The notes beneath the pieces are model-generated. The model made no database searches, was not told where the DNA came from, and was given only the letters and a program-made list of their open reading frames with translations. 64,000 nt of DNA, from positions 310,001 through 374,000 of the forward strand of contig NZ_WIQM01000004.1 of assembly GCF_015732185.1 (NCBI RefSeq), given 5' to 3'. This stretch comes from Pectinatus haikarae. GTDB taxonomy: Bacteria > Bacillota > Negativicutes > Selenomonadales > Selenomonadaceae. How positions within the stretch are numbered: position 1 is the stretch's first letter; each line of letters begins with the position of its first letter. A program made the position numbers and the translations under genes. Of the stretch, positions 4,181 to 36,911 are shown one piece after another.

Positions 4181-5698
4181 TTAAACTGTAGTAGCCAGAC
4201 GCCAGATAGAAAAATCATTCTGTTTATTTATTTCGGCTTTTGTCAGCATGCCATTACTGACTGCTGTGATAAAATCCAATATTTCTTCGCCCATTTCACA
4301 AGTGTTTTTTTCACCCGTTATGACAGCACCGGCATCAAGATCTATCATGTCATTCATTTTTCTGAATGTTTCAGAATTTGAAGATACTTTGATAGTAGGT
4401 ACGATAGGACTGCCGGTAGGTGTTCCGCGCCCCGTGGTGAATACGCATATGTTGCAGCCGCCCGCGGCCATTCCGCTCAATTGTTCAATGTCATTGCCCG
4501 GAGTATTCATCATAGTAAGCCCTTTGTCTGTGATTTGTTCGGCATATGCCTTTACAGCAGTTACCGGCTGGCTGCCTGCTTTATAAATGCAGCCCAATGA
4601 TTTTTCTTCTATACTGCTTAGTCCACCCTCAATATTTCCGGGACTGGGATTGGCACCACGAATATCCGCGTGTGCGTCTATAACAGCCTGTTCAAAACCT
4701 CGGACTGTGTCAAGTATATCTTTTTTTACTTTTTCATTTTCAGCCCGCTCCGCCAAAAGATGTTCGGCACCGATCAATTCTGTAGTTTCGGCTAAGATCA
4801 CGCTTCCGCCATGTTCGATAACAATATCAGAAACTGCACCCAGACTAGGATTGGCGCTCAGTCCTGAAAAACTGTCGCTGCCACCGCATTCTGTACCGAG
4901 AATAACATCAGCCAGGGTACCTTCGGTTTTTTTCCCCTGAACAGCTTCCGCAAGCATCTTTTTGACGATTTTCACACCTTGTTTTATAGTTTCATTGACA
5001 CCGCCAACTTCCTGAATTACAAGATGGTGAACTTTTTTATAAGGCGCGCGTTCACTGATTTCTTTTGCTACGTCTTCGGCTGGGACACCTTCACAGCCGA
5101 GTCCCACTACCAGAACGCCATACACATTCGGATTTGCGCCTGTGCCGACTATCACAGATTTTGTCTGAGCGGCGTCATAGGATAATTCACTGCAGCCATG
5201 CTGATGAGTCACATAAACTACGTTTGTTTCCTGAGTGGCGGATAGATCACTGTAAATAATAGAGTTAGCTATTTGTTCAACGGTTTTGTTTGCGCAATGG
5301 ACACTGGGAATTACTAAGATATGATTACGAAAACCAAAACTGCCATCACCTCTGCGGTAGCCCATAAGCGAATATTTTTTATCGCTGTGTGCAGTCTCGG
5401 GATGGATGAGGCGGCTCTGTATGATTTTTCTTACCTTGGAATCGGTATCGCCCCGGCCGCGCTCGCTTTCAAGATTGTGGATATGCACCCACTGACCTGC
5501 TTTTATATCACTTGCGGCAACGCCTATATGCGAACCATATTTAATGATGGTTTTCCCTTGGCGAATGTCTGTCGTGGCAAATTTATGACCCTGCTTTATA
5601 TCTTGGAGAAGAACGGTGTCCAGAGCAATGTCGCCTTTTGGCAGAAACTTTAATGCTGTTGCGACATTATCTGCCACATTTACATGCAATGCTTTCAT
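4181..5698 (-). CDS. uxaA: UxaA-family sugar-acid dehydratase, probable L-fuconate dehydratase
   Basis: A 505-residue altronate-dehydratase-like protein. An amino-terminal SAF domain (about 1-90) precedes the large UxaA domain with its Cys-rich iron-site motifs (GCSE, GLGCEG, GTECGGSD, GGCNICVF). It is the first gene of the fucose operon. In C. jejuni the same protein is encoded as two ORFs (Cj0482/Cj0483) and is assigned to fuconate dehydration; here it is one chain. The ATG at 5698 is chosen over an in-frame upstream ATG because AAAGGAAG precedes it, and the extra 19 upstream residues overlap the leader just after the promoter. An altronate role is possible but no uxaB or uxaC is nearby. 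Confidence 0.82.
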   Translation of the reverse strand: MKALHVNVADNVATALKFLPKGDIALDTVLLQDIKQGHKFATTDIRQGKTIIKYGSHIGVAASDIKAGQWVHIHNLESERGRGDTDSKVRKIIQSRLIHPETAHSDKKYSLMGYRRGDGSFGFRNHILVIPSVHCANKTVEQIANSIIYSDLSATQETNVVYVTHQHGCSELSYDAAQTKSVIVGTGANPNVYGVLVVGLGCEGVPAEDVAKEISERAPYKKVHHLVIQEVGGVNETIKQGVKIVKKMLAEAVQGKKTEGTLADVILGTECGGSDSFSGLSANPSLGAVSDIVIEHGGSVILAETTELIGAEHLLAERAENEKVKKDILDTVRGFEQAVIDAHADIRGANPSPGNIEGGLSSIEEKSLGCIYKAGSQPVTAVKAYAEQITDKGLTMMNTPGNDIEQLSGMAAGGCNICVFTTGRGTPTGSPIVPTIKVSSNSETFRKMNDMIDLDAGAVITGEKNTCEMGEEILDFITAVSNGMLTKAEINKQNDFSIWRLATTV

Positions 5699-5733
5699 CG
5701 AGACACTTCCTTTTGTTAGTATATAAAAACTTA

Positions 5734-5753
5734 GTTCGTATATAATTACAAAC
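5734..5753. promoter_or_regulatory. Candidate operator at the fucose operon start site
   Basis: GTTCGTATATAATTACAAAC is an imperfect inverted repeat: 7-base arms with 6 of 7 matching, and a 6-base centre. It lies immediately downstream of the -10 box, over the expected transcription start. That placement suits a repressor, most simply the adjacent IclR-type regulator. Binding is inferred. Confidence 0.5.
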
Positions 5754-33692: not shown

Positions 33693-34196
33693 TCAGGTAA
33701 AATTTTTTAAAATAATAGTTCCTTTTTTTCTGGTTTCGTTCATATCGATGATACGTTGATTGCTGCTGCCGCGAAAGGATAAAGTCAGATCCCGCTTCTC
33801 AAGCAAGAATGGACCGTCTATAAGAATATCGGTAAGGTAAAGCAATCGGGTGATGTCCTTGTTATGCATAGCTGTGAGCTGCTCCAGCGTGTAGCCTGTA
33901 TAGGTAGTGATATTAAGAGGCACCGCATGGATTTTTTCCGCAAGAAGGGCAAGCTCGCCGGCCTGAAGAAAAGGTTCGCCGCCGCTGAAAGTCACACCTG
34001 ATAACAGAGGATTCTTGCAGATCTGCGTGAGCAGCGCATCGGGATCAGCATATTTCCCGCCGCTGGGATCGTGTGTATGCGGATTATGGCAGCCGGGACA
34101 CTTGTGCGGGCATCCCTGTGTGAAAATAGTGAAACGGTAGCCTTCACCGTCAACTACAGAATCATCAACAGTGCCGGCAATCTTAATTAAGCCCAT
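33693..34196 (-). CDS. nrdG: Anaerobic ribonucleotide reductase activating protein
   Basis: A 167-residue radical SAM activase that installs the glycyl radical on class III ribonucleotide reductase. The cluster motif is QGCPHKCPGCHNP (CxxxCxxC). TFSGGEPFLQ is the GGE-type segment, and DILIDGPF is a family motif. The start overlaps the end of the small glycyl-radical protein by 14 bases, so the two are coupled. In this operon its true substrate should be the small protein at 34183-34467 rather than the large NrdD chain. Confidence 0.93.
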   Translation of the reverse strand: MGLIKIAGTVDDSVVDGEGYRFTIFTQGCPHKCPGCHNPHTHDPSGGKYADPDALLTQICKNPLLSGVTFSGGEPFLQAGELALLAEKIHAVPLNITTYTGYTLEQLTAMHNKDITRLLYLTDILIDGPFLLEKRDLTLSFRGSSNQRIIDMNETRKKGTIILKNFT

Positions 34197-34467
34197 GTTT
34201 TACGCGGTCATGCTCTTCTGCACGTTTCGCATTGTTGAAACGGTCGGTAGTGCCGACAAGATAGCCGGTAATACGGCGGATTCGTTCAAATTTTGCAGGC
34301 CGCAGCTTATAATCAAGTGCGACATTGCCGTTGCCGTCATCTGCTATAGAAAGATACTTCAATCTTTTAGAAGATTGATTTTCTATACGGTCGATATAAC
34401 TTACGATTTCTTCCTCAGATATACCGGCTAAGCCGTTTAAGTTGATTTCAATGCCTTTTAGTAACAT
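34183..34467 (-). CDS. Detached glycyl-radical domain of class III ribonucleotide reductase
   Basis: A 94-residue protein. Residues 59-91 match the extreme carboxy end of NrdD proteins: ERIRRITGYLVGTTDRFN and AKRAEEHDRVKH, with RITGY as the glycyl-radical loop (radical glycine G68). Residues 1-55 are an added domain of unknown fold that full-length NrdD does not have at this place. The large NrdD upstream ends at its zinc site and lacks this loop. The gene starts 35 bases after the nrdD stop with AAGGA 10 bases before the ATG, and overlaps nrdG. It recalls the spare radical domain YfiD/GrcA of pyruvate formate-lyase, but here no intact copy is present on the large chain. Confidence 0.8.
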   Translation of the reverse strand: MLLKGIEINLNGLAGISEEEIVSYIDRIENQSSKRLKYLSIADDGNGNVALDYKLRPAKFERIRRITGYLVGTTDRFNNAKRAEEHDRVKHGLN

Positions 34468-34502
34468 GATCAGCACATCCTTTTTATTTAATATTTTTCA
34501 AA

Positions 34503-36776
34503 TCAGCACAGACATTCCGTACGGGGAATGACTATATGATGCATATGTTCTTCCTCTGTACGGCCGCACTTGGGGCATACATTATCTATTATACCCGTGT
34601 AGCCGCAGATAGGATCACGGTCAACGGGATGATTGACAGAACCATATCCTATGCCGCTGTCATGCATGCAGCGGATAATTGTTTCAAATGCTTTTAAATT
34701 TTTAAGTGGGTCGCCGTCCATCTCAACATAGCTTATATGTCCGCCGTTAGTCAAGCTGTGATATGGTCCTTCCAATTGAATTTTCTTATAGGCACTGATC
34801 GGATAATAAACCGGTATGTGGAAAGAATTGGTATAATAATCGCGATCAGTCACGCCGGGAATTTTTCCATAACGCTTGGCGTCTATTTTGACAAAGCGAC
34901 CGCTCAGACCTTCAGCAGGAGTAGCAATAAGTGAAAAATTCAGATGAGTATGCTCCGATTCTTCATCCATCCGCTTACGCATATGACCAATTATTTCCAG
35001 CCCCAGCTTTTGCGATCTGGCGCTCTCGCCGTGATGCAGCCCTGTCAGAGCCTTCAAAGCTTCGGCAAGACCAATGAAACCGATAGTCAATGTGCCGTGC
35101 TTTAATATATCGCCAATCTTGTCTTCAGCGGATATTTTTTCTGAATCAAGCCATATGTGTTCGCCGATGAGGAATGGATAATTGCGGCCGAATTTTGCCG
35201 ATTGGATTTTAAAGCGGTGCAGCAGCTGTCTGATAACGAGATCGATCATAGCATCAAGATCATTATAAAACTTGCTGATATCACCGTGTGCTTCAATACC
35301 CAGACGAGGCAAATTGATACTTGTAAAGCTTAGGTTTCCCCGCCCGCAGGTGGTTTCATGAGCGGGATCATACGCGTTTGCCATCACGCGTGTGCGGCAT
35401 CCCATGTAGGCAACTTCCGTATTGTAATCGCCTTTTTTATAATATTTTTTGTTGAAGGGAGCATCAAGAAAGCTGAAATTAGGAAAAAGTCTTTTGGCCG
35501 AAGTCTTTATTGCCAATTGAAAAAGATCATAATTGGGATCGGTATTGTTGTAATTTATACCTTCTTTTACCTTGAAGATCTGCACGGGAAAAATTGGTGT
35601 TTCGTTATTGCCCAAGCCGGCCGCAGTTGCCAGCAATAAATTCTTTACCGCCATGCGTCCTTCGGGTGAGGTATCCGTTCCGTAGTTTACAGAACTAAAG
35701 GGTACCTGAGCACCGGCACGGGAATTCATTGTGTTCAGATTATGAACAAAGGCTTCCATTGCCTGATATGTGGCCGCATCAGTTTCGGCAGTGGCAGTTT
35801 TTACGGCATAGGCGTGTGCCGCATTGATAACAGAAAGCGGAATAGGTTCAAATAAAGCTTCCTGCTGGTAATCATCAAAAAATCTGATAAGAGTATTACC
35901 GAAAGAATCAGCGGCAGCCATTGAGATTGAAGGAGAAACAGCCTTTTCTATTTTATTGACCAGCAGACGCGAGTCAGCGGCAGACTTATCGAGAGTTATG
36001 CTGAAGTATTGTGCAAGGGCCTTAAAATATTGTTTGACAAAGGTTTTTGCCACGCCGGGCGCCATGGAGTAATCGAAGTTGGGAACAGCCTGTCCGCCGT
36101 GCATTTCGTTCTGATTGGCTTGTATGGCTATACAGGCCAGCGCAGCGTAAGAGCGAATATCATTGGGTTCGCGCAATGCCCCATGCCCCGTGGAAAAACC
36201 GTTATGAAATAATTTCAGCAGATCGATCTGACAGCAGGTTTCTGTCAGCATGTAAAAATCCATATCATGTATATGAATATCACCATCAATATGAGCTGCT
36301 GCTATATCCTTGGGAAGAATATAATTATCAATAAAATATTTGGATCCTTCCGATCCGTATTTCAGCATTGTGCCCATAGCTGTATCGGCATCTATATTGG
36401 CGTTTTCACGTTTTAGATCGGCATCCTTTGCCTGCTTGAAAGTAAGTTCGCCGTAAATATCCATCAGATTAACTTTTGCTTCACGTATTTTGGTGTGCTC
36501 AGCACGGTACAATATATATGCTTTTGCCGTACTGGCAAGATTGTCTGCTATAAGTACGCGCTCAACAGCATCTTGTATTTGTTCAACGGTCGGAACGGGA
36601 AAAACCGCTGTATCTTCTATAACTTTTTGTGCAAGCCGCTGCAGTTTTTCTGGTGTGAAAGTATCATCAACTGATTCCAGATTCGCTTTTTTGATAGCAA
36701 TTACGATCTTTTGTGCGTTAAAATCGGCGATACTGCCGGTACGTTTTTTTATTGAGCTTATGGTTGTAGTAGTCAT
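34503..36776 (-). CDS. nrdD: Anaerobic ribonucleoside-triphosphate reductase, large chain without glycyl-radical loop
   Basis: A 757-residue class III reductase making deoxyribonucleotides in the absence of oxygen. Residues 5-95 are an ATP cone (IKKRTGSIADFNAQKI). The barrel carries ETCCQIDLLKLF, NEMHGGQAVPNFDY, YMGCRTRV and ETTCGRGNLSFTSINLPRLG. The chain ends after the zinc-site region CGYTGIIDNVCPKCGRTEEE and HHIVIPRTECLC. The RxxGY glycyl-radical segment that normally follows the zinc site is missing and occurs on the next gene. The frame ends with a normal stop and a 35-base gap, not a frameshift into the next gene. NrdR-like boxes lie upstream. Confidence 0.93.
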   Translation of the reverse strand: MTTTTISSIKKRTGSIADFNAQKIVIAIKKANLESVDDTFTPEKLQRLAQKVIEDTAVFPVPTVEQIQDAVERVLIADNLASTAKAYILYRAEHTKIREAKVNLMDIYGELTFKQAKDADLKRENANIDADTAMGTMLKYGSEGSKYFIDNYILPKDIAAAHIDGDIHIHDMDFYMLTETCCQIDLLKLFHNGFSTGHGALREPNDIRSYAALACIAIQANQNEMHGGQAVPNFDYSMAPGVAKTFVKQYFKALAQYFSITLDKSAADSRLLVNKIEKAVSPSISMAAADSFGNTLIRFFDDYQQEALFEPIPLSVINAAHAYAVKTATAETDAATYQAMEAFVHNLNTMNSRAGAQVPFSSVNYGTDTSPEGRMAVKNLLLATAAGLGNNETPIFPVQIFKVKEGINYNNTDPNYDLFQLAIKTSAKRLFPNFSFLDAPFNKKYYKKGDYNTEVAYMGCRTRVMANAYDPAHETTCGRGNLSFTSINLPRLGIEAHGDISKFYNDLDAMIDLVIRQLLHRFKIQSAKFGRNYPFLIGEHIWLDSEKISAEDKIGDILKHGTLTIGFIGLAEALKALTGLHHGESARSQKLGLEIIGHMRKRMDEESEHTHLNFSLIATPAEGLSGRFVKIDAKRYGKIPGVTDRDYYTNSFHIPVYYPISAYKKIQLEGPYHSLTNGGHISYVEMDGDPLKNLKAFETIIRCMHDSGIGYGSVNHPVDRDPICGYTGIIDNVCPKCGRTEEEHMHHIVIPRTECLC

Positions 36777-36864: not shown

Positions 36865-36911
36865 TTACTATATATAGATGTGGATGTCAATTTAAGCACA
36901 ATATATTGAAA
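36865..36911 (-). promoter_or_regulatory. Two NrdR-box-like sites upstream of nrdD
   Basis: TTACTATATATAGATG (36865-36880) and GCACAATATATTGAAA (36896-36911) each resemble the NrdR box ACACTATATATAGTGT, with strong central palindromes CTATATATAG and CAATATATTG. Their centres are 31 bases apart, the three-turn spacing usual for NrdR. The site is about 90-135 bases before the nrdD start. This fits dATP/ATP-controlled repression of the operon. Confidence 0.65.

Follow-up and report, generated by a model that had tools for sequence, protein, structure and literature searches.

A 64,000-nucleotide stretch of the Pectinatus haikarae genome (RefSeq assembly GCF_015732185.1, contig NZ_WIQM01000004.1, positions 310,001 to 374,000; hereafter the window) contains the genes for a class III ribonucleotide reductase (RNR) made in two pieces: a large chain, NrdD (P0002), and a separate small protein (P0001) that bears the glycyl-radical loop. 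We consider it very likely that the loop of this enzyme is a separate, obligate protein and one of a broader group of free-standing cofactors. On a somewhat less firm footing, relatives in Bacillota, Eggerthellaceae and phages probably constitute a widespread set of exchangeable glycyl-radical cofactors of class III RNR, which would repair oxygen-cut NrdD, would help phages to sustain the enzyme of their host, would have passed several times from spare part to obligate subunit, and would allow one radical subunit to serve two quite different large chains.

An NrdD without a radical loop and a small protein that carries it

A preliminary description of the window had proposed that the 757-residue NrdD ends just past its zinc site and that a separate 94-residue gene, 35 bases on and coupled to nrdG, bears the loop with the radical glycine G68; the coordinates (Table 1), the profile matches and a structural alignment bear out both points. 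P0002 is assigned to the class III enzymes by PF13597 (E = 1.1e-189), has an ATP-cone at residues 9–95 (E = 5e-17), and scores 1046 bits against NF005497 (cut-off 764). On the 562 positions of the Pfam NRDD profile, P0002 covers 1–533 and P0001 covers 533–562. When aligned to the solved structure 8p23, which we take to be the NrdD of Prevotella copri (compare PMC11226230), P0002 reaches chain residue 707 and residues 59–91 of P0001 correspond to 706–738. Hence the glycyl-radical loop expected on the single chain of a class III NrdD sits on P0001, and because the two proteins jointly span the whole NrdD profile and 8p23, together they amount to one complete enzyme. The distance of 35 bases runs from the nrdD stop to the small-gene start, where translation from the ATG gives 94 residues and from an upstream GTG 97, and the small gene overlaps nrdG by 14 bases.

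Table 1. The divided reductase locus, in window positions.
Feature	Position	Strand	Basis
nrdD, class III ribonucleotide reductase large chain, 757 residues (P0002)	34503..36776	-	ATP-cone, barrel and zinc site, without glycyl-radical loop
Small glycyl-radical subunit, 94 residues (P0001)	34183..34467	-	End of NRDD profile, conserved loop
New N-terminal domain of the small protein, residues 1–57	34297..34467	-	Predicted strand-helix-strand-strand
Codon of radical glycine G68 in RRITGYLVG	34264..34266	-	Aligned to 8p23 glycine loop; invariant in 40 rows
nrdG, radical-SAM activase (P0003)	33693..34196	-	TIGR02491 over cut-off
NrdR-type box 1 upstream of nrdD	36896..36911	.	Pair score 25.5 of 36
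NrdR-type box 2, 31 bases from box 1	36865..36880	.	Same pair score as box 1

The preliminary description had named a full-length nrdD in the same genome as one observation that would overturn it. This was looked for, and none is present: the assembly (3.1 Mb in 17 contigs, 99.57% complete) holds a single copy of the small gene, with no second NrdD match and no other NrdD loop.

The small protein is most conserved at its radical loop. In 40 rows from a whole-protein search, F60, R62, I63, R64, R65, T67, G68, Y69, L70, G72, N78, K81, E84, R88, V89 and H91 are invariant; a 124-row set agrees at 12 of these 16 positions, partly by construction because its rows were fetched with patterns from the same region. 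Purifying selection is strong, with whole-gene nonsynonymous divergence (dN) of 0.03–0.06 against synonymous divergence (dS) of 0.3–1.7 in nine pairs of close relatives. The presence of a new amino-terminal domain ahead of the loop, claimed earlier, stands, while its extent is 57 residues here instead of 55. AlphaFold2, run with the 124-row alignment, predicts a strand-helix-strand-strand arrangement followed by the loop and a short helix (mean predicted local distance difference test score 79.7). No Pfam family reaches its cut-off over residues 1–57, and Foldseek returned nothing for the predicted fold at E ≤ 0.001. ToxR periplasmic domains (best VIA Z 5.6) were considered as relatives of this domain; the arrangement is a widespread one, and we draw no conclusion from the match. 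Matches of P0001 at 23–79 to ankyrin proteins in the PDB (E 0.05) are regarded as chance. Four loci in the family (L309–L312, in genomes G016, G010, G039 and G060) encode paralogues of the N-domain in frames of 78–101 residues, in which the FERIRRI-like strand is kept and the radical loop is gone; these are possible regulators or antagonists.

The division recurs across the family. Among 121 Selenomonadaceae genomes from 30 genera, NRDD is present in 115 and a small-protein match in 114. A search of Negativicutes genomes had been proposed as a check; in this family 111 of the 121 encode the small protein as a chain of its own (26 of 30 genera, counting intron-interrupted copies), and small protein and truncated NrdD co-occur over 26 genera, in support of the earlier suggestion that the small protein is obligatory here. 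In G011, G030 and G052 the match is just the loop of a full-length NrdD, with no separate small protein; the six genomes without NrdD are also without the small protein. The sole exception is G023, which has an NrdD and no small-protein match, and there the NrdD runs to the contig end. The copies listed for G102, G107 and G120 are interrupted by an insertion. Main NrdD matches in the family mostly end at profile position 529–541, and the truncated chains retain the zinc site and a short tail (e.g., HHIVIPR). Exceptions are the three full-length NrdDs just named, contig-cut or fragmentary NrdDs, and extra full-length or divergent copies (G102:C66, G010:C6, G116:C27, G074:C70 and G054:C47); the profile matches of G100 (end 548) and G026 (end 552) read through stop codons. 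The Selenomonadaceae NrdD, mostly without a loop of its own, would depend on a separate part.

Two truncated lineages and shared regulatory boxes

The truncated NrdDs form two lineages. In lineage 1, that of the window (about 620–642 bits), nrdD, the small gene and nrdG are grouped together, and at the loci inspected a truncated NrdD lies at most 800 bases upstream of the small gene in 27 genomes. In lineage 2 (about 563–587 bits, about 50% identical to P0002), nrdD is elsewhere in the genome, and the small gene stands beside nrdG or, in genus g12, alone. Five genomes (G021, G063, G073, G080 and G114) encode both kinds of truncated NrdD, about 50% alike, and one small protein. In the trees lineage 1 falls alongside NrdDs of full length from other families of Negativicutes, and the sister of lineage 2 is likewise full-length; the loop was apparently lost more than once in Selenomonadaceae. 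An approximately unbiased (AU) test of 36 truncated against 15 full-length rows rejected a single clade of truncated NrdDs (p-AU 1.7e-48), for a group that was named only after an earlier tree had been seen, and a single origin of the truncation in the family was set aside with the same proviso of post hoc choice. The test left out 16 rows of the preceding tree (phage rows, L313–L317 and L324), and L120, which has the loop, was left out of both the later tree and the test; L324, L278 and L283 have long branches and their placement is unsure. With full-length sampling at 15 rows, the direction of change in G011 and G030, loss or regain by fusion, is not settled. Four lineage-2 NrdD frames (G070:C2, G107:C81, G102:C60 and G752:C19) measure 942–1127 residues, with a profile match broken near 259–265, and probably contain inteins.

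Paired NrdR-type boxes were sought with an assumed consensus, at spacings restricted beforehand to 20–22, 30–33 and 41–43 bases; the detected pairs are spaced 30–32 or 42 bases. The pair upstream of nrdD in the window was equalled in 2 of 200 shuffles. Box pairs precede 16 of 17 small-nrdG operons in the lineage-2 arrangement (≤4/200 shuffles as good), all eight of the lineage-1 truncated nrdD genes searched (≤1/100), 13 of 24 lineage-2 nrdD genes (≤3/100) and 12 of 15 full-length nrdD genes (≤3/100); the lineage-2 nrdD of the five genomes with both kinds is without them. With box pairs ahead of both the small-nrdG operons and the nrdD genes, parts of the enzyme that are encoded at different places often have a regulator in common.

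Free-standing, phage-borne and rearranged relatives

To judge from the sequences, the small protein is also carried as a loose part by many phages and other gut bacteria. A survey of 300 genomes from the class shows at least five non-members of the family (G121, G124, G136, G162 and G187) that encode a free-standing small protein along with a full-length NrdD, with neither nrdD nor nrdG in the DNA inspected on either side of the small gene (at most about 6 kb). In a scan of named genomes, the best 80 loci among the matches listed belong to Selenomonadaceae, Clostridia, Eggerthellaceae (Adlercreutzia, Raoultibacter) and a few others, and 41 of these 80 genomes were tested for NrdD. The four Selenomonadaceae among the 41 have a truncated NrdD only. 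The remaining 37 comprise 33 with a full-length NrdD (1–562), one of which (G735) has a truncated one besides, two with a contig-cut NrdD piece that includes the loop, and two considered below.

Viral contigs yielded relatives in 398 stretches, in some cases with the loop alone; 80 were retained, and nrdD was sought in 50 records. No nrdD was seen in 43 of these, a truncated one in seven and a full-length one in none, and five of the 43 span 113–251 kb. The neighbours of the small gene at some phage loci include endolysins, an integrase and a phage RNA polymerase. Five phage loci have truncated nrdD, small gene and nrdG in this order, two of them with identical NrdD. In the cultivated Eggerthella phage EL753P1 (L334, 1–2587), a truncated nrdD is followed by a separate radical-loop gene, which is apparently out of frame at the radical motif and whose loop part is unannotated. 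A 66.5-kb phage contig (L231) encodes a reverse transcriptase (PHROG 1423, 900–2303) about 3.7 kb from the small gene.

NrdD is also divided in other ways. In L313–L317, from other Bacillota, the truncated NrdD has a different tail, and an open reading frame of 52–85 residues between NrdD and nrdG carries the loop without an N-domain of the window type; at L324 and L333 the split occurs in a divergent NrdD. The breadth of the family, the unlinked arrangement, the phage copies and these repeated independent splits go beyond the preliminary description. In one genus the small protein is naturally fused to NrdG (L321 in G595, 4876–5739, 287 residues; L329 in G572, 1922–2833, 303 residues), which suggests that the small protein and the NrdG activase work together. 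L321 was the sole true fusion among the open reading frames of the collected loci, its relative L329 being added afterwards, and the other long frames look like upstream non-coding extensions.

In genus g12 (L054, L055, L056, L057 and L077), the small gene is interrupted directly 3' of the radical-glycine codon (RRITG/YLVG) by insertions of 237–319 bases with a conserved, covarying RNA structure (two-sided changes at 20 of 69 pairs in five aligned sequences). We read these as group-I-like; against Rfam they gave no match at the gathering score, and for the L055 insertion a search up to E 10 gave a flpD fragment and nothing else. The insertions in the small genes of L058 and L067 are longer, and the frame within that of L058 presumably encodes an HNH endonuclease.

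Proposed mechanism, alternatives and relation to known systems

In the mechanism that we propose, the large chain retains the ATP-cone, the barrel with its thiyl cysteine and the zinc site, and the 94-residue protein would contribute the loop with G68 and the tail. The small protein would most likely fill an open slot at the barrel end of the large chain, aided by its N-domain, which the preliminary description had suggested as a docking module; as also suggested there, the radical subunit may be swapped after damage by oxygen. NrdG would then abstract hydrogen at G68, and the resulting glycyl radical would generate the active-site thiyl radical. Oxygen cuts glycyl-radical enzymes at the radical glycine. 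In other anaerobes, whose NrdD is full-length, free-standing members would probably repair oxygen-cleaved enzyme, a role we propose by analogy, and phages probably apply their free-standing copies to the host enzyme. By analogy with YfiD, as described in PMC8683613, the small protein would stand in for loop, tail and preceding strand, and we infer that the N-domain takes the place of YfiD's N-half as binding element.

The genes follow one another at a distance of 35 bases, each in its own frame, as they would if the two frames were one gene broken by a frameshift, a sequencing error or pseudogene decay, or joined by programmed frameshifting. We give this explanation almost no credence: the separate small protein recurs in 111 of 121 genomes, it has an extra N-domain with its own start and is under strong purifying selection, and the unlinked lineage-2 genes refute the idea outright, which also upholds the earlier argument that no simple frameshift or nonsense mutation is at work and disposes of the concern that resequencing might join the frames. 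It is improbable, if less extremely so, that the small protein is a repair part only, with the truncated NrdD using another loop or being inactive and a class II RNR making the deoxynucleoside triphosphates (dNTPs). The genome does encode a class II-like RNR (749 residues; its class is our reading of the sequence), and free-standing copies in other taxa accompany an intact NrdD; against this, the genome holds no other NrdD loop, in 26 of 30 genera the small protein accompanies the truncated chain, and NrdR-type boxes lie at many of these genes. Marginally less probable again is a decoy or regulator that inhibits NrdD or NrdG, above all in phages. Such a role would suit the 43 of 50 phage records with a small protein and no nrdD found, as well as the loop-less paralogues; yet conservation of the protein peaks at the radical loop, and inhibition cannot account for an NrdD that has lost its loop or for the fusion to NrdG.

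Several observations weigh against an obligate radical subunit drawn from a family of exchangeable cofactors. The genomes sample the family rather than exhaust it, and assembly fragments occur among their NrdDs. Two of the 37 carriers outside Selenomonadaceae (G725 and G738, metagenome-assembled genomes that are perhaps incomplete) show the small protein and no NrdD, and because NrdD is widespread in anaerobes, its presence among the 37 is weak evidence by itself. The absence of nrdD is unproven for a whole phage because virus records may be fragments. No boxes were found at 11 of 24 lineage-2 nrdD genes or at free-standing copies in other Negativicutes (0/7), genus g12 (0/5) and prophages (0/6), and since boxes are usual at nrdD genes, those in small-nrdG operons may serve nrdG. 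The analogy with YfiD is also inexact, because the N-half of YfiD is reported as disordered (PMC8683613) and the N-domain here is predicted to be folded.

If the proposal holds, the family would be a candidate set of spare parts for a second enzyme of central importance, and its naturally obligate form lends itself to purification and direct testing. Radical carrier and catalyst would be parted in an enzyme that makes DNA precursors, akin to the two-subunit class I enzymes, and phages would gain a cheap lever on host dNTP synthesis. As of 2021, spare parts had been validated for pyruvate formate-lyase (PFL) only, with others thought possible (PMC8683613). In the portions of the open-licence literature that were searched, neither a spare part for NrdD nor a detached radical subunit of NrdD is described; one RNR phylogeny dropped sequences under 400 residues (PMC9531940), a filter by which such a subunit would be missed. 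Phage nrdD genes in several pieces are mostly ascribed to intron, intein or endonuclease insertions, the cause in phage phiAS4 being given as unknown, and the Jug phage nrdD consists of 230- and 91-residue pieces without splicing evidence (PMC3653736 and PMC12363816); the boundary between the latter might be a split of the window kind.

Three known systems invite comparison. The canonical NrdD (8p23, and 1h78, which we take to be that of phage T4) has the same ATP-cone, barrel, zinc site, RRITGYLVG loop, DRVKH tail and nrdG partner; it differs in that the loop of the window enzyme is on another chain, which adds a new N-domain. The split class II RNR NrdJa/NrdJb of Pseudomonas aeruginosa likewise has two chains, the second with a C-terminal functional domain, but it is class II and has no glycyl radical (PMC9669993). 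The PFL cofactors YfiD/GrcA of Escherichia coli and Y06I of phage T4 are, according to PMC8683613, small free-standing proteins of host and phage that repeat their partner's radical loop, C-tail and preceding strand and have an extra N-terminal part. This likeness, drawn in the preliminary description, has been strengthened by the free-standing copies beside full-length NrdD and by the phage contigs in which no nrdD was found. The differences are that the loop here is of the NrdD type rather than the PFL type, that the partners would be NrdD and NrdG, that the N-domain is predicted to be folded, and that the Selenomonadaceae protein looks obligate because its large chain has no loop. Membership in GrcA by sequence was rejected: P0001 matches only NrdD families in Pfam and NCBIfam, where no PFL, Gly_radical or GrcA family appeared up to E 0.1, with one sub-threshold SMI1_KNR4 match. 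A loop protein beside a full-length partner, the GrcA-like trait, is found among the relatives (33 of 37) and not in the window genome, whose partner is loop-less. The system would function like GrcA, yet by sequence it is no GrcA.

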